Of a stretch of DNA of 64,000 nt, positions 30,803 to 41,558 are shown in pieces (the first letter of the stretch is position 1; the number at the start of each line of letters is the position of its first letter). The translations under genes were made by a program, and so were the position numbers. Below the pieces are notes generated by a model. The model ran no database searches, was not told the DNA's origin, and saw nothing but the letters and a program-made list of their open reading frames with translations. The stretch comes from Ricinus communis (taxonomy: Eukaryota; Streptophyta; Magnoliopsida; Malpighiales; Euphorbiaceae): NCBI RefSeq assembly GCF_019578655.1, contig NC_063263.1:7574001-7638000 (forward strand), given 5' to 3'.

Positions 30803-33800
30803 CACTTGATCTTATGACAATTTATTTCTATGTTGGGATGTGAGAATTCTTGGGCCAATCTTCCCCTCCCTCCTGTTGACACCTCCTTTCTAGCAAAGGA
30901 CATTTCCAGATAGATAGAAAAGAAATGGAGGAGGGCAATCCCTCTTCAGGATTGGACTGGAGGTTAGGGCAGCACTCAATCTCCGATTTTCTAAGAGAAG
31001 TAAGCTGTTGAAGTCCCTTGTAATTCAGAGATATCATATTCTGCATATCTCTAATTATGAGATAGGCAAGCGTGGATGACAGCTGCTCTTGTGGCACAGA
31101 ATGAAGCTGAGGACAGTGGTTGATCTCCAGTTCTCTAAGAGAAGTGAGGTGTTAAAGCCCCTTATAGTCCAGAGACTTGAGATTTCAAGAGACTGAATTT
31201 TAAGAGAGGTAAGAGTGGAGGGCAGCTTCATCTTCCTAGGAAATGATTCCATATCCTCTTCTCTATACCCAGCAATACTAAAGTGCAAAAGCAAGGGGAG
31301 CATTTGCAAACCCCATTGCATTTGGCCGCAGATCAGCTTGTTGCAACTTTCAATATGAAACAATTTTAATTCAGAAGGTAAACCCCCTGCTGGGAATGAC
31401 TTAAGTTTCGTACAATTACAGATACAGAGAGAAGAAAGAGAGGATGGGAGCCCCTTTTTGGGGAATGACTCGAGCTCTGGACAATAAGCTATATGCAGCT
31501 CCATAAGGATAGGGAAAAAGAAGGTGCATAAGTTTAGGTAGCAACTTCAAACTTGAGCAATACCATAAAAACAACAATATTAAATTTGGGGCAAGTAATC
31601 CTCCTTCAGGAAAAGATACTATCTTGCCGCAATTTGAAATTTCCAAGGAAGTGAGAGATGTGAAATCCCCATGAGTTGGTTCAGCTGGACAAATGGATTC
31701 CAGATTTTGACAGTTAATTATGTGAAGTTTCTGCAATCTGGGAAATGACCCTAACGAGCAGCACTTAAGTGAATTACAATCAGTGATATCAATCCTTCCT
31801 ATTCTGGAACAAAGAACACCAAGTAGTATCTTTCTTTCTTGTAGAGAAGTAGGGAGATGAACTCGGAGTGGAATCGACTAATTACGAAACTGTGCTGACC
31901 ATGAGACAATTTCTTTATCACCACATCATGAAAACAATCCTTAAACATGATCCTAACGGTTAATGGAGCCACTGGAAATAAAGGCGCAAGCTGATGACAT
32001 TCCTCAATCTCAAAGTACTGTTAAAGAAGGAAGGTGACTAGGCAGGCCCTCTGTAAGTCGGGGGCATCCTCTTATGCAAAGCTTTTGGGATAGAGGGAAT
32101 CTTGAGCAACTCTGGCGTGTTGAATTTGAAACAGATATTCTTTCTCTAGGGAAAGATATTAAACTTGGGCAACGCCTAATTTCCAAGAAAATGAGAGATG
32201 CGAAGACCCTACGAGTTGCTTCTAGCATGGAAAGGGATTCAATATTTTGACAGCTCTCTATATACAATCTCCTTAATCTAGGAAAGAATTCTAACGGGAA
32301 GCACTTGAGGGTATTATAGCCTCTGATTTCAACATCTTCTAAAGAAAGGGAAAGACGTTCTGTTTTCTTTACTCCCTCAAATAGGAAATCTATGGAGTCG
32401 AATTTGTCAACTTTGCGTTGTCGTGCCCAGTAGACAGTTTCTCCAACTTCACATGACGAGAATTATCTTGCAACAGCATGTTGTCCATCATTGGTGCCCC
32501 TAGAAGTGAAAACACAAGTTGCTGACAATCCACAATCTTAAGTGTTGTTAAAGAAGGAAGGTGACCGGGTACAACCTTTACTAATTTGGGACACGCTCTT
32601 ATGTAAACCTCCTAAAGGAGATGGAATGCTCCATTCTCATCTTTCCACTCTCGCCATTGTGGCATCCTCTCAAACTTCAAAGTTTTCAGGGATCTAAATG
32701 ACTTCTCCATGGACTTGCAATTTCCATGGAATTCAGGACCGACAATCACAATTTTATCAAAAGCTGCAATGTAAAGATCTTCTAGAGATGGTAACTGACC
32801 CAGTGATGGTAAGCAGGAGCAGTATTTGCTTCAAGTGAGTTTCAAGGATACTAAATTCGAGAAAAAAGAGTCTCCTACCCAGCCTGGAACTCTTGTACGG
32901 CCTTAGCCAGAAACTGACATGCGTTCCAAGTTAGTATGAGGTTGTAACTGCTCAAGGACGTCTCTTTCTTGCGGTGAATCATCAGTGTCGCCATCCCATA
33001 CTAGCTTCAACTCCTTAAGGTGCTTCTTACCCTTTAAATTAGCTCTCAGAGCATCCTGCGCATCCACAACAGTTTGAAGCTCCCAAATAGAAAGTTTTCC
33101 CCCCAGATTCTGGAGCTCTCTCTACTCTCTAATGCGAGATCCACTATTTTTCCCCACAATAAAATTAGTTAATATTTGCAGCTTTATCAGTTTTCCCATT
33201 TTCGGTGGCATCTCTTGCAAGCAAGTTTGTCCAATATCAAGATGAAGCAAATTGATTAACCTCATTGTAGATTGGGGTAACTTTTTCACTAATGTTCCTA
33301 AGAATCCAAATATCGCAAATACTTCAAGTTACCAATTGAATTAGGCAATGCAACAAGGCAACTAGAAAACTGCAAGTCTAATAACAACAAATGGTTTCAG
33401 GTAATTTTCTAATTAGCATTCTGGAGAGGTCTGGATATCCTAAATGTTTCAAAATGCTTACTGAATCGAGCAGCTTCTGTGCACCGTCACACCCAGAGAA
33501 AGATAGCACTCTTAGATGCTTTAACCTTCGGATCATATCATGCATTTGCTTATCATCAACGTTCTCAAGCAACGAAAATAAATTTGATGGTAGCAAGGTC
33601 CGTGAAAATTTCGCTCTATATAAATCACGAGGGATTTCAGTCATATTGCATGAATCATCACCTTTTAATTTGAAGTAAAAGTTTGAGGACACCGACACAG
33701 CTAAGTCATTTAGAAGATCATGCATAATGAAGCCAGATTCATCGCCACTTATTGGTTGAAGAAAGGACCTTGATAAGAGATCATGAAAGTATTCATAACC

Positions 33801-33980
33801 TATTTTTTCCATCTCCTTATTTCCTGTGAATTGAACTAGAAAGCCTTCTGCCATCCATAAAAGGACTATTTCCTGTTTCTTAAGTTTACAACCTATAGGA
33901 AATACAGTACAATAGGCAAAGCATCTCTTGAGATGTGTTGGGAGATGTAAATAGCTCAATTTCAGAGCAGGAATTACACA
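30803..33980 (-). pseudogene. CC-NBS-LRR (RPP13-like) remnant B: partial NB-ARC plus LRR
   Basis: The copy begins abruptly in the middle of an NB-ARC domain (VIPALKLSYLHLP, then HLKRCFAYC, LLWMAEGFL, YFHDLLSRSF) and keeps an intact MHD motif (IMHDLLNDLA). The frame is open from about 34007 to 33378 and then breaks. LRR coding continues in several frames down to a family-like C-terminus near 30803. A single-base frameshift after SHIP hides the expected I-E-I-N-C-H-K tail, and several in-frame stops occur. Everything upstream of the RNBS-D region (coiled coil, P-loop, kinase-2, GLPL) is absent because the left end is fused to the LRR of copy A at about 33980. NLRs of this class are cytosolic immune receptors; this copy cannot encode one. 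Confidence 0.85.
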
Positions 33981-36737
33981 TCCACTAACTTGTAGAGTCT
34001 TTAACATAGGTAGCAGTTCTAATGAAAAGCACCCGAGAGAATCACAATTCTAATTTAAATTTCTTCCAAATTAGTGGAAAGATCACCTATTTGCTCTATT
34101 CCCTCTAGCAGGAATTTATTAATTACGAGTCTATGCATCCGATAAGGCAACTTCTCGAGCAAAATGTCTCGAGAATAGTCCATTGTCTTCATTTTGAGGA
34201 AGGTTGGAGTCATTAAGGGTTTAAGTTTTCCATAATCCTTCATTTGAAGAGTTGCTAAAGAAGGAAGGTGAGTAGGGAGGGTCGTTACAAGATTAGGACA
34301 ATTGTTTAAGTACAGCTTTCTAAGGACAGGGAAAGCTATAAGTTCATCATTGTTCACATGGCAATTCCACTCGCACCAATATGTCATCCAAGAAGAATCT
34401 TAAAACCTCAAGGGATCTAAAGGCTGCCATCATAGATGAGCAACTCCTATAGAACTCAGGACTAACAACCTTACCTGCAGTCAATGAAGTGATTGACAAT
34501 TCTTTTAAGGAGGGTAACTGCCAAAAAGATGGCAAAAATGAGCAGCATTGACATTTACCGAATGTCAAGGAGACTACATTTGACAAGGACAAGCCTCCTG
34601 CCCATTCTAGAAATTTTGTAGCATTATAACCAACAATGGAAAGATCTTCTAAGTTAGCATGCGACTGTAATTGTTCAAGTAACACTATTTCCTTTTATGA
34701 AATCCATTTTTTCATCAGCCCATCTCGATTCTAACCCCTTTTAGGTCTTTCTTACTATTCAGATTGGATTTCATAGCTTCTTGAGGATCCACAACATTTT
34801 GAAGATTCCAAACAAAGAGTTCTCCACAGAGATACTGAAGCTCTCCTAGCTTCTTGATGCTAGATCCACATTGTTTTCCTATGAAGAAATCAGTTAATAC
34901 TTGTAGATTCTTTAACCTCCCCAATTGTAATGGCATCTTCTGTAGTTTTGTTTGTCTAATATCAAGGTGATGCAAGTTGATTAGCCTTTCTATTTTGGTT
35001 GGTAATTCAACAAGATGCTTGCACTTGGACAATATTAAAGTCTGCAAGTTATACAAACTATTCACTGATTTAGGCAAATACTGGATGTTCTATGAACATT
35101 CAAATATCGCAGAAGCTTTAAGTTTCCAATTGAACTTTGCAATTCATCTATGCTGGTATATTGAGGTAGAGATAGAGCTCGAAGGCACCTGAGTTTTGGT
35201 AATAAGTCATGAGTCACCTCTTTGTCAATATTTGATGTCTTACCACGTCCATGGAAAACCTAAAGGTATCAAAGTGCGCAAACACTTAGCTTTATAAATG
35301 CCTTGAAGCTTCCTCGATGTGTCCTGATATGTTTTTACATAGGATAAATGGCGAGTCTTCTTATCATTCTTGCTTCGTGAATTTTCACAAACACCCTCCA
35401 ACTGCGAGCAAAACTCTAGCCACAATCATTAATCAGATCAAGCATCATGAAATAAGATTGATGACTTCTTGATTTTCGAAAAAATGACCTGGACACAAGA
35501 TCATGGAAGTACTCCTCAGCTATTTCATTTACCTCCTTGTTCCCTTTAGATTGGACTAGAAAACCTTCTGCCATCCAAAGAAGGATCAAGTCCTCTTTCT
35601 TAAATTTATAGCCCTTAGGGAACAACAAGCAAAGAATCGTTTTACAGGTAAAGGAAGATAATGGTAGCTTAATCTTAGAGCTGGAAGAACATCATGATTT
35701 ACCAAATCCCACATTTCACTCTTTAGTATCTTCTCCCATTCATCCACCTTTCTTTTAGAACGTAGTAGTCCCCCAAGGGCCTTTGTAGTTAAAGGCAAAC
35801 CTTTGCACCTTTTCACGATTTCTCTACCAATAACTTCTAGGATTAATGTTTCTTGGAGTTTCCATTAACAAAAGGATGGTTTGCAAACAAGAACCAACAA
35901 TCATCGGCATTTAATTCTTTTAGATGATGAATTGGAACAGTGCACACGATGGCTGTTACATTTTCATTGCGTGTTGTAACAATGATCTTATGCCCTAGCG
36001 CTCCAGAGTTAAAAGGTTTTTGCAAACTGTTCCAAACAATATACTTATCGTTCTAAATATCATCTAAAACAAGCAAAAATTTCTTATGCACCAATCCCTT
36101 CTGTAGCTCAAGTTGAATTTGATTTAACGTGGTGGCTTCGCAGTTTTTCTAGATGACCTCCTCAAGAACATCTCTCGTTACCTTGCATACATCAAACTCC
36201 TTGGAGACACACATCATTGCTTTGAGATCAAACCATTCTTGCACTCTGCTATCATTGTAGAGAAGTTGAGCAAGATTGGTTTTTTCAACCCCACCCATAC
36301 CCATAATAGAAATAAAATCTATATCGTTGCTACCATTAAATATCACCTTTGTTATAGCTTCCTTATCAGCATCCCTACCATAGACACCAGATTCATCAAC
36401 CAAAGAAGTTGGTATTTTTTGAGAAGATGGTTTCTTTCCATTACCATCTCTCAAACCAAGAGCATCCTTCTGGTTAGCCAAATGTTCAATTTACTCAAGA
36501 ATTTCTTCTAACTTTGTTTTCACTCCCTCTTTAAATGGATTATAGGTAGAGAAGAAGTTCATCACCTTTTTCTTTTGAGATGGAGCTTAGGACTTGATAC
36601 GAGTCATCAGCTTCATAGATGGCATCTTTAAGCTCATCAAGCCATTCTTTCATAGATGGCATCTGCTTCTCCTCTGCATCATCAAAAACTCAAGTTATAT
36701 ATATCATTGTTGTCTGCAACTCCTTAAGCAGTTTATC

Positions 36738-36959
36738 GGGTTAAATGTCCTGCTGGTACCAAACCTTCGCACTTTTTTTCAATTGGTACCAAACCTTCAA
36801 TTTGTTTCTTTTTTATACCACTTCTATTATTTCTGTATCTTCCGCCAGTACCAATGAGGAATCTTGCACTTATTTGCTGATGTGGCTGTCGGATTTATGA
36901 AGGATAACATACCACTTGCCACATCTGTTGCTGACTCAACAAACAGTTATCCAACCCAG
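36738..36959 (+). repeat. Left terminal inverted repeat of the Pack-MULE
   Basis: Aligns to the reverse complement of 37296-37518. Shared blocks include TTGCTGACTCAA, CACTTATTTGCTGATGTGGC and CAGTACCAATGAGGAATC. Confidence 0.9.
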
Positions 36960-36961
36960 TT

Positions 36962-37251
36962 GAACCCAGCTCCACAACTCCATTGGCTGACGGAATACAA
37001 ACCAAAGTCTGCAACCCAAAAATCTGACCCTGTCTAGCCCGTTCACAAGACGACGAAGCTAACCGTTCTAACCCAGCAACCTAGACCGGACTCCCGTTGA
37101 AAAAAGCTTGACCAGGTAACCCACCACCATTAACAAAAGATTGTTGGGGTTGCCAGAGAGCCGAGAGATCGGTATTCATAAAGGCTTCCATGACTGATGC
37201 GTTGTCGTTACTTCATAGATTCATTGTCGGTGCTACTATATAGTCCGTCAT
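36962..37251 (-). pseudogene. Captured MYC2-type bHLH gene fragments inside the Pack-MULE
   Basis: On the minus strand from 37251 the frame reads MTDY, then PTMNL, a stop, DNASVMEAFMNTDLSALW, which is the N-terminus of MYC2-like bHLH factors (MTDY...PTMNLW...DNASxMEAFM). It then jumps without a frame change to SFVNGGGLPGQAFFNGSPV, a stop, [19 protein letters not shown] and [20 protein letters not shown], which belong to the JAZ-interaction/transactivation region of the same family. About 150 residues between the two pieces are missing, as are the bHLH domain and everything after. Both stops sit where the family has Trp, so they are probable TGG to TGA/TAG changes. MYC2 is a nuclear regulator of jasmonate responses and its gene is usually intronless. 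This fragment has no DNA-binding domain and is not expected to make a working protein. Confidence 0.88.
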
Positions 37252-37295
37252 TCCATACAAAGCTAAACAATTTTAATTCAGTGAGATGTTAATTG

Positions 37296-37518
37296 CTGAG
37301 TTGGATAACTGTTTATTGAGTCAGCAACAGATGTGGTAAGTGGTGTGTTATCCTTTATAAATCCAGCAGCCACATCAGCAAATAAGTGACGGATTCCTCA
37401 TTGGTACTGACGGAAGATACATAAATAATATGAGTGGTATCAAAAAGAAACAAATTGAAAGTTTGATACCAATTGGATATAAGTGACCAAAGTTTAGTAC
37501 CAGTGGGGCATTTAACCC
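37296..37518 (-). repeat. Right terminal inverted repeat of the Pack-MULE
   Basis: The inverted partner of 36738-36959, ending CATTTAACCC directly before the 9-bp target duplication. Confidence 0.9.
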
Positions 37519-37647
37519 CAGTTTATCACTGTGTTTTCGACCCTTGAAGAAGTCAAGGACTTAGCGAGAAGCCATCCTATTAAACAAAACATTAAGGAAA
37601 GAAAAGAGAAGAGCTCCTCCTACCAGTGCACTAGCTATGGTTTCTCC

Positions 37648-38907
37648 TCTTTAAAATTGATCAACAATTGATTCTGCCCTAGGGAAAGAAGGCATAGAAA
37701 TATGTTTGACTTACAACCTGCTACAACTTGCTAATTACAAATTATCTTATTGGTAGAAAATCCAAATACTATGCTACAACTTAATTAATTAATTTAATTG
37801 GTATTTTTTACTCATATGATTATTACAAACTTCCACCTACTGATTCCAATTCTCAAAAGTGCTTACGAGATTTCCATGTTTTTACACTCTTATACTTCCC
37901 ATAACATCAATCTTGACCCTAGTTGCTGTAGCGTTTGTTCATTCCATTAATCTTTTGTATCTCACTCAATTACAATTTGTTTTGTTTAATATTATTTAAA
38001 ATTTTATTTTAAATCAATATTAAAATCTTAATACAATTAAACTTTTAAAATTAGATTTATATTTAATAAATTATTGATATTTTTATTATTAATAAAATTA
38101 ATTAATAAATGACTTAGTTAATCTAATTAACTAAATAATCAATAAAATTATTTTAATAAATTTACTTATATATATATTTATAACAATATAATAGTAAAAT
38201 TATAAAAATTTATAAAACATAAGTAAAATACAAAAAATAAAATACAAGGAAAATCGTTGAATTTAAACAAAAATTTTATTTTTTAAATTTAAAATTTCTC
38301 AAAATGCTATTTAAAATAAAAATCAGATGCTCCAAGTCCGTTAGTAATTCTCATATAAATACAAGGGTACGTACTCTATGCTTTAAAAAAAAGAAAAAAA
38401 AGACTCGAACGCATGGCTTCAGAAGCCTTAATTTTAACAAAGATTTGTCTTTTTCGTAGAAAGCTTATGATTATGAACGTCGAAAAGGCAGCCATGAAAT
38501 TGCAGAGAATGGGAATAACAGTATAAACTGGTAGAGATTGTGGAATTCGATACAAGTTTGATTCTGTGGATTATGTGCCAACACTAATATCTAAACCATA
38601 CTGCATACTCCATTTTTTTCTTTTCACTAAAAATTCTCACTATTTCACTGTGCAAAGAAACCAATTGTCCTAAGCCCAGGCATTGAAAAAATTCCAATAC
38701 TATACTGTAATATTTGCATTTTCAGATTACAAAAACCATTCCGTCACCAAGTCAAGTCAACCTCTCACATTTAGCAGAGAAGGTTGGCAACAACAGAATA
38801 GCAGTAGCTTCTTGAAAACAACCTACTCTTACTTAATCATGAAGAGGAAATCTCTTTCATTTCAAACATCCCGCTTGGAAATCCATGCCTACTGAAAACA
38901 TTCTCCT
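37648..38907. other. Intergenic region between NLR remnant and RRM gene
   Basis: AT-rich DNA, probably including the old NLR promoter (left) and the 3' UTR of the RRM gene (right, about 38.6-38.9 kb). No further gene was recognised. Confidence 0.5.
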
Positions 38908-41558
38908 TCACTTTTGGTAGGGATGGTACCTTCCTGTAACAGCACTACCACCATTGTCACCGCCTACATATCCCCTACTACTCCCATGACTGCCGTTACC
39001 AGCACCACCACCACTTCCATATCCCTTAACACTGCCAAAACTACCACTCTCACTGCTTCTTCCAAATCCTTTACCACCACCGCCATATCCTGCAGTGGGA
39101 CCATAACCACTTGTGGTACCATACCCACTGCCTCCATATCCCCCGCTACCAAACATCATGGGACTACCATACCCGAATCCATAACCATATCCACCATAGC
39201 CACCATAAAAACCATTACTGCTTCCATAGCCTCCACCGTAGCCTCCATAACCACTGTAGCCACCATAACCACTATATGCACCATAACCTCGACCCATTTT
39301 TCCACCATACAGACCCCCTGAATTATGGCCAGCACCATAGCCACCTGCACCATTGCTGAATCCAGTGTGATACTTTCCACTGGAGCCATAATCACCACCA
39401 TTTCTCTTTGGTACAGCCTTCTTGATTTCCACCTAATTTGTAACAAGGACTTAAGTTGTAAATATTTCATTTGAAAAACTATCAACAATAGTACCAATTT
39501 TCTAACAACTTTAGTTTACCCGTTTTCCTCCAAGTTCATGTGTCCTGCCAGTTGAAAAGATCTGTTCAACAGAATCTTCAGTCTCAAATGTGACAAAGCC
39601 AAAGCCCCTAGATCGTCCAGTTTTATGATCCAGCATTATCTGGTGCTCAACAATGTTGCCATAGACAGAAAAATACTCCCCCAGTTCATCTGTGAAAAAG
39701 AGCCATATAGTCAAAAGAGGGTATCATTTAGCTTCTTACAAAGGAGATAATATAACATGACAGCTGAACTCTACCTTCAGTCAGAGTTGGTGGTATTCCA
39801 CCAACAAAAATTTTCCTGGCTCTTACAACTCCTTTAACCTCCATTTCCTCCCTCGGAACTGTCCTCTTTACTTCAACCTGGCATAAGAATGCACTACAAT
39901 AAGCTCCAAAAAACTGAAATTTTAATCACTCATAAGGTGGGAAAAAAGAAGCAAATAAATTATTGGAAACTTTAACGTCCTATTTAATGAAGGAGCGGGA
40001 GTATTACCGCTCTGTCATCAATGATATGGTCTTCCTCCAAAACCCTATCAGCAGCTGCCAGGTCAGCAAATGTTACAAATCCAAAACCCCTTGGCCTTCC
40101 AGAATGTCTATCCCTCATAATAACAGAGTCTGTGATTTCTCCAAACTTACTGAAGTAACTAGTGAATGTTTCTGAAACCAGATCAACATGAACAATATAA
40201 GTGATAGGAGGAGAGTGGATGCTGGATTAAGAGAATCTAACGGCCAAAAATAGAAATGGGCACCTTGTCTATGTGGTACAGATGTTTACAAAGGGGGAAA
40301 GGTTAGATAAACTGCTTTACCAGTAAATATTATGCTTCTACTTTTTACGCACACCTATAGTTATAGTTTTATCAACATCAAGCTCTTGAGGAAATAGAAA
40401 GCATCCATCAGTAGTTAATGTTTCATCTAATTTGCTTTTCTTTTTGCTCGAGGTGAGTTTCATAAATGGCATAAGTGTGTTGCGGTAAGGCACTGAGCAT
40501 CAAAAGCTTGATTTTAAGCTCTGTATCTCAATTTAGCTTTCTGAAAATCAGCAGACTGCAGATTTTTCTGGAAAGTTAAGACCCCATAAAGCCTAACTTC
40601 AGTTTAATCCAGTATAAAAACCGATAACAAGGGATATGATGAAGAAAGATAAGTCCTCTGCTATATCCATGCCAGAAAACAGTAACCCATGAAACACAAC
40701 TATCCATTGCACCCCAAAGACCAAAGTAGAAAATTCCTCATTGGGTGAAGAGCATTGAAATTTCTAGCGCAAATGACAATGTCTGAAACTCTAAGAAAGC
40801 ATGTAACTAGTTCTTAAATAAAGTTATTCTTTAAGAAATTACCAAGCAGGAGTGAGAAGTTTGGATCACAAGTTTTCTACTAAAAACTTTTGGCCAACCT
40901 TAATATTGTTTCCCAACACTTTAATTAAATGGCTAAACTGCGTGCCTACTACCCAGAAAATAACCTATATAATGTTCCCATTCTTTGACAAAGTAAAACA
41001 ACAATCAAAGCAACTTGATAAAATATTTGTGATATATGGAATTAGAATAACACAGGGTTCTAAATCAGCAATTACAATCAAAATCATTGTCCTTCACAGA
41101 ATGTGAAACAAACAAGAATGTTATATTAATATAACTCATGAAAGAAAAAGAAAAAGAAAAGAAAGCATTTACCTTCAGTAGTTTCCCAAGAGATACCACC
41201 AACAAAGAGTTTTCTACCGGCAACAATAACACAATTATTAATTATAATCTCTCCATTCAAAGCTCTAACTTTCGGGCTGTGAAACCCTAAACATCTACTA
41301 CAAAACTAACTAACCAACTAACCCTTGAGAAGAATCAGAAGAAGAATTATCACGAGTCTGATTAAAAGTTAGGGATTGCCTTCTCCCATTGCCACCTGCA
41401 CCGCCTAATTCATGTTGATTTTGATGATGATCCTGTTGGTGTTGTTGATTATCATCGTAATAATCATCCTCTTCTTCTTCTTCGCCATTACAGGCTACAA
41501 TATTGTTATCTTCAAACTGAGTTCGTCGTTGTTGTGCTTGTGGATAATCGTAATCCAT
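38908..41558 (-). CDS. hnRNP-like RNA-binding protein: two RRMs and a Gly/Tyr-rich tail
   Basis: Six exons on the minus strand: 41558-41323, 41213-41173, 40171-40008, 39877-39775, 39689-39520 and 39432-38908, giving 412 residues. An acidic Gln/His/Asn-rich N-terminus (1-78) precedes RRM1 (about 80-155; RNP2 KLFVGGISW, RNP1 RGFGFVTF) and RRM2 (about 169-245; RNP2 KIFVGGIPP, RNP1 RGFGFVTF). The last exon encodes a low-complexity tail of GYGG, GSGG and SGYG repeats ending GRYHPYQK. This is the plant hnRNP A/B-like (RBGD) architecture; AT3G13224 is the closest protein I recall. Such proteins bind RNA in the nucleus and take part in splicing and stability control, and their tails drive condensation. 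The R-Y-H-P-Y end resembles a PY-type nuclear import signal. Exon 2 is only 41 bp. All junctions are GT-AG. Opposite-strand frames over the tail are shadows of its repeats. Confidence 0.93.

Follow-up and report, generated by a model that had tools for sequence, protein, structure and literature searches.

A castor Pack-MULE carrying the 5′ part of MYC2, probably captured once and later shortened by 417 bp in one copy

A Pack-MULE of castor (Ricinus communis) carries the 5′ part of MYC2, a piece that was very probably acquired once, by template-switching gap repair; 417 bp of the piece are absent from the copy described here, and none of the three copies found retains an open frame. This copy lies in a 64,000-nucleotide stretch of DNA, referred to below as the window. 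Its interval 36738-37518 is a genuine Pack-MULE carrying castor MYC2 sequence, and the 417-bp absence is likely a loss that followed capture, as judged from the sequences of three copies and the parent gene.

Long TIRs and a target-site duplication (TSD) of about 9 bp, both features of Mutator-like elements (MULEs), were present in the window element (Table 1), and its two TIRs were about 88% identical. As expected of a Pack-MULE, a host gene fragment was found between the TIRs without a transposase, and MYC2 codons filled the core. The 781-bp Mutator-like element with TIRs proposed in the initial annotation was confirmed by arms of 222 and 223 bp and a perfect 9-bp TSD.

Table 1. Coordinates in the window of the element, its captured sequence and the surrounding NLR-type gene pieces.
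Feature	Position	Strand	Basis or remark
Left target-site duplication, CAGTTTATC	36729..36737		Sequence
Non-autonomous Mutator-like element (Pack-MULE), 781 bp, GGGTTAAATG...CATTTAACCC	36738..37518		Same TIRs at many other genome sites
Left TIR, 222 bp	36738..36959	+	Arm-versus-arm alignment
Capture end; TIR and MYC2 share CAACTCAG in both sister copies, window reads CAACCCAG	36952..36959
MYC2 codons 177-239, later half of bHLH-MYC_N domain	36952..37140	-
Join lacking 417 bp (codons 38-176); 2-bp TC microhomology	37139..37141	-	Comparison with parent and both sisters
MYC2 codons 1-37	37141..37251	-
33 nt of MYC2 locus 5′ of ATG, reaching the other capture end	37252..37284	-
Sub-terminal transposon sequence common to other family members	37285..37295
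Right TIR, 223 bp	37296..37518	-	Arm-versus-arm alignment
Right target-site duplication, CAGTTTATC	37519..37527		Perfect 9-bp match to left copy
Decayed NLR-type gene split by the element	36152..37650	-	ORF and domain scan
N-terminal ORF of NLR-type gene	37650-37561	-	Label from reading alone
Rx_N	36689-36543	-	27.9 bits, cut-off 27.7
NB-ARC	36490-36152	-	Domain scan; LRR pieces beyond
LRR	35089-34718	-
Winged helix with LRR	34049-33381	-
Weak R13L1-type LRR	31546-31058	-	Below cut-off

In a minus-strand translation starting at the ATG at 37251, MYC2 residues 1-37 were followed in the same frame by residues 177-239; the absent residues 38-176 correspond to 139 codons (417 bp), in frame. The reading was interrupted by two in-frame stops (TGA at 37215-37213 and TAG at 37083-37081), both of which are tryptophan in the parent. 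With X at the stops, the read-through peptide matched MYC3 structures (E 2.4e-20, 4rru) and Pfam bHLH-MYC_N (profile positions 85-164 of 181, E 5.4e-18), and 325 of 333 aligned bases of the capture were identical to the castor MYC2 gene. A MYC2-type capture on the minus strand, as first proposed, was thus borne out. The initial annotation had also described an in-frame fusion of the N-terminus across a gap of about 150 residues. The frame is indeed kept across the join and the gap is present, but the two stops had been overlooked and the gap measures 139 residues.

The second piece had been read as part of the JAZ-interaction and transactivation region. By residue count, D94 of Arabidopsis MYC3 would lie in GWGDGYYKG, which was aligned to the castor protein (castor D111) and falls inside the missing part. 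PMC4466561 places the MYC3 D94N mutation within the JAZ-interacting domain and gives the activation domain of MYC2 as residues 149-188. By residue count, the window copy would lack the segment bearing the D94-equivalent JAZ-contact residue together with part of the activation domain, so that the earlier reading would hold for some of the activation domain but not for the JAZ-contact segment.

A genome search with the whole element (315.5-Mb assembly, 140 contigs) yielded 107 matches, and 40 of 332 candidates were scored. The parent gene and further element copies, for which such a search had been suggested, were both found, in the form of one parent and two sisters. The window corresponds to C8:7574001-7638000, and the parent MYC2 is on another chromosome (C5:28540053-28540802; L009, 6 kb around the gene), where the core alone matched and no TIR match was seen within L009. 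The parent has an open 663-codon frame with bHLH-MYC_N, HLH and ACT-like domains, and its protein is 100% identical to transcription factor MYC2 [Ricinus communis]. Among castor MYC genes, comparison was confined to this one MYC2 locus.

MYC2 sequence was present in at least three TIR-flanked places: the window, C5:8694518-8695722 (L010) and C9:8625699-8626901 (L011). Each sister is a 1201-bp element holding one unbroken 750-bp MYC2 stretch, from 33 nt 5′ of the ATG to codon 239, with 715/750 (C5) and 708/750 (C9) bases identical to the parent. The sisters have their own 9-bp TSDs (GCCATGCTC and GAGCAAAGA), and the TSD is perfect in all three MYC2-carrying copies. When the copies and the parent were aligned, the capture ends were identical in all three, and the 417-nt gap was confined to the window copy, which also has a 3-nt difference in the transposon part beside one capture end. 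The captures stop at codon 239, short of the parent HLH domain (486-532). An open frame with MYC_N and bHLH domains, as expected of a MYC2-type bHLH gene, is absent from all three, which contain in-frame stops (two in the window, four in the C5 and six in the C9 copy); the TAG at codon 57 of the window copy occupies a position that is also a stop in the C9 copy. An ORF whose first ATG is at L023 6437 begins about 0.7 kb downstream of the C5 sister (L023 4522-5722), the MYC2 piece of which points the same way.

The window element and the NLR-type gene that it splits are on the same strand, the MYC2 piece being sense to the gene. After removal of the element and one TSD, the rejoined empty site read ...RKHSDKLLKELQ... 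without a change of frame, flanked on both sides by stops. The frame across this site was ...VLDFFKGRKHSDKLLKELQ..., and the NB-ARC piece was in another frame. The insertion may have come before or after decay of the gene. Further NLR-type pieces in broken frames were seen on the minus strand at 31000-35100, possibly from two decayed NLR genes in tandem, and a glycine-rich long ORF was seen at 38908-39432, also on the minus strand.

Differences from the parent were largely C>T and G>A changes (5/8 in the window, 25/35 in the C5 and 29/42 in the C9 copy), a predominance expected of methylated transposon DNA. Between copies, the TIRs differed more than the captures in the window-C5 (8.7% versus 4.8%, p 0.047) and window-C9 (10.3% versus 5.7%, p 0.026) pairs; the values for C5-C9 were 10.0% and 8.1% (p 0.29). 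This excess divergence of the TIRs is unpredicted by a single capture with equal decay; exchange among the TIRs is one possible cause, and conversion by the parent another. Rough divergence ages of 1.6-8.3 million years (at rates of 7e-9 to 1.5e-8 substitutions per site per year) were set aside, as the copies disagree. Raw dN/dS against a flat null was 0.50 (window), 0.49 (C5) and 0.29 (C9). With a spectrum-matched null, the C5 and window copies fitted neutrality, and in the C9 copy 21 of 42 changes were synonymous versus 12.0 expected (P 0.002). The private changes of the C9 copy gave a similar result (15 of 34 synonymous versus 9.5 expected, P 0.026), and its stops were also above expectation (6 versus 3.2).

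The join in the window copy had originally been taken for two joined fragments, a rearranged capture. That reading did not survive the comparison with the sisters, both of which carry the 750-bp piece unbroken and bounded at the same two points, and the join is therefore best read as a later loss of 417 bp. Had two separate captures, or one skipping repair event, set the MYC2 pieces side by side, the 1201-bp copies would have to be independent captures. Such a history would accommodate the in-frame join, the larger between-copy differences in TIRs than in captures, and the finding that, among the three copies, the window copy is most similar to the parent. The lower divergence of the window copy was non-significant on shared columns (8/333 versus 12 and 17/333, p 0.50 and 0.10). 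The identical outer ends in all three copies, with the middle kept in two, speak against such a history. We consider it very improbable in either form; two independent captures in particular were rejected on the shared ends and the continuity of the sisters.

Two further readings concern function. A MYC2-like coding product was rejected on account of stops in all three copies, and MYC2-like protein from the element is not expected on the basis of these frames. Selection of the copies as a short protein or microprotein would agree with the frame preserved across the window join and with the synonymous excess, which is seen in the C9 copy only; the in-frame stops of every copy argue against it, and we regard it as extremely improbable. 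The initial annotation had also suggested that the element could supply small RNAs against its parent. According to a review (PMC13317346), siRNA effects of captured fragments on donor genes occur in maize. In castor, read-through RNA would form a TIR hairpin and give MYC2-matching siRNAs that lower MYC2. Exact matches to the MYC2 locus were found for 179/761 21-mers of the window copy, 225/1181 of the C5 copy and 218/1181 of the C9 copy, and the predicted fold of the 781-nt RNA is strong (-405.7 kcal/mol, z -25.7; 0/20 shuffles as low). However, the predicted hairpin stem is the TIR, with MYC2 in the loop, and the window piece runs sense to the surrounding NLR-type gene. PMC13317346 also notes that silencing depends on how important the donor gene is, and that for essential donors it may be eliminated by purifying selection. 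Sequence identity would make a small-RNA link to jasmonate signalling possible in principle, but that the copies act as a source lowering MYC2 seems very unlikely. Slightly less likely again would be a wider version, in which three dispersed copies together supply a lasting pool of small RNAs matching MYC2 and the transposon family tunes the jasmonate master regulator, the window part being under the promoter of a disease-resistance-type gene.

Under a single capture followed by loss, the events would have run as follows. During gap repair at an element of the TIR family, synthesis would have switched at the shared CAACTCAG from the end of the TIR to MYC2, run through 750 bp of it (codon 239 to 33 nt before the ATG) and switched back. 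The product reached at least three places, as the copies and their own 9-bp TSDs attest, presumably moved by a family transposase. A 2-bp TC match would then have been the site of a 417-bp loss from the window copy, likely during a further round of repair, and the in-frame character of this loss is taken as chance. This copy now lies within an NLR-type gene, in its N-terminal part, and the gene has stops and frame shifts. The copies would since have decayed largely without constraint, mostly by C>T and G>A changes.

The breakpoints were compared with a progenitor sub-terminal string (...CCAACTCAGCAATTAACAACATCTCAACCCC...) merged by hand from the rows of other TIR-family members. Against it, CAACTCAG (8 bp) was common to TIR and MYC2 at one end and TCA (3 bp) at the other. 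Among 400,000 random TE-MYC2 junctions, matches of at least 8 bp arose in 0.03%, of at least 3 bp in 6% and of at least 2 bp in 18%; the 3-bp and 2-bp microhomologies are within chance. CAACTCAG was present in 5 of 17 arms of other listed family members, the rest having CTAGTCAG, CAAGTCAG or a different form, and the CAACTCAG-bearing arms were without the ACATCTCA that yields the 3-bp match at the other end. The progenitor is therefore uncertain, and the microhomologies, given here as at most 8 and 3 bp, may in fact be shorter. In the three MYC2-carrying copies, the arm opposite the CAACTCAG capture end has CAACTCAG (window), CAACTTAG (C5) and CAACTCAA (C9); CAACTCAG is thus likely to be ancestral. 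The microhomology at the capture ends would fit template switching during gap repair or replication. Gap repair and template-switching models are discussed for Pack-MULEs and Pack-TIRs in PMC8277862.

Remains of a MULE transposase with SWIM were found in two elements of 5.2-5.5 kb with the same TIRs (L012 610-6072 and L013 604-5804), both scanned in pieces. L012 gave PF10551 at 37.5 bits (cut-off 27.6) and PF04434 at 19.7 bits (cut-off 19.6); L013 gave PF04434 at 28.2 bits and PF10551 at 24.6 bits, below cut-off. Transposase-carrying elements with these TIRs are likely the kind of helper involved, the reading frames of L012 and L013 themselves being broken. Three other elements of about 0.9-1.3 kb (L015, L016 and L022) have the same TIRs and other insides, and one arm of each leads into a similar AACAAAAAC... 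stretch.

The set is unusually complete, comprising the parent, two copies in which the capture is unbroken, one shortened derivative and the locus into which that derivative inserted, and the capture ends can be read to within a few bases. For these reasons it offers a clean plant example for models in which Pack-MULEs are born by repair. It also lends itself to testing if small RNAs directed at a parent gene arise from a captured fragment of a master regulator; taken alone, the castor element leaves the view of jasmonate signalling unchanged. A literature search for Pack-MULE or gene capture together with MYC2 returned a sole match, which by its title concerns promoter motifs.

Like the Pack-MULEs of rice, Arabidopsis, maize and other plants, the castor element has long TIRs, a 9-bp TSD and a host fragment without transposase. 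It resembles them further in having its parent gene elsewhere, several copies, mostly broken frames and an insertion near a gene start, for which Pack-MULEs have a preference. It is particular in deriving from the jasmonate regulator MYC2 and in having one copy of three that is short of 417 bp, but these are not differences in kind, and the element is an ordinary instance of a well-known kind of gene capture. Pack-TIRs, as described in PMC8277862, likewise show microhomology at capture breakpoints, and multicopy cases have spread with distinct TSDs. In the animal survey reported there, gap filling is the preferred explanation of single-copy cases, and multicopy cases are ascribed rather to fork stalling with template switching; compared with those animal Pack-TIRs, the castor element is a plant MULE present in three copies, and it would fit either process alike. 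In its shortened form, the window copy resembles the internal deletion derivatives of the Ds/dSpm type, but the part lost is captured host sequence, not transposase. In those non-autonomous DNA transposons, a shorter copy arises from a longer one by internal loss.
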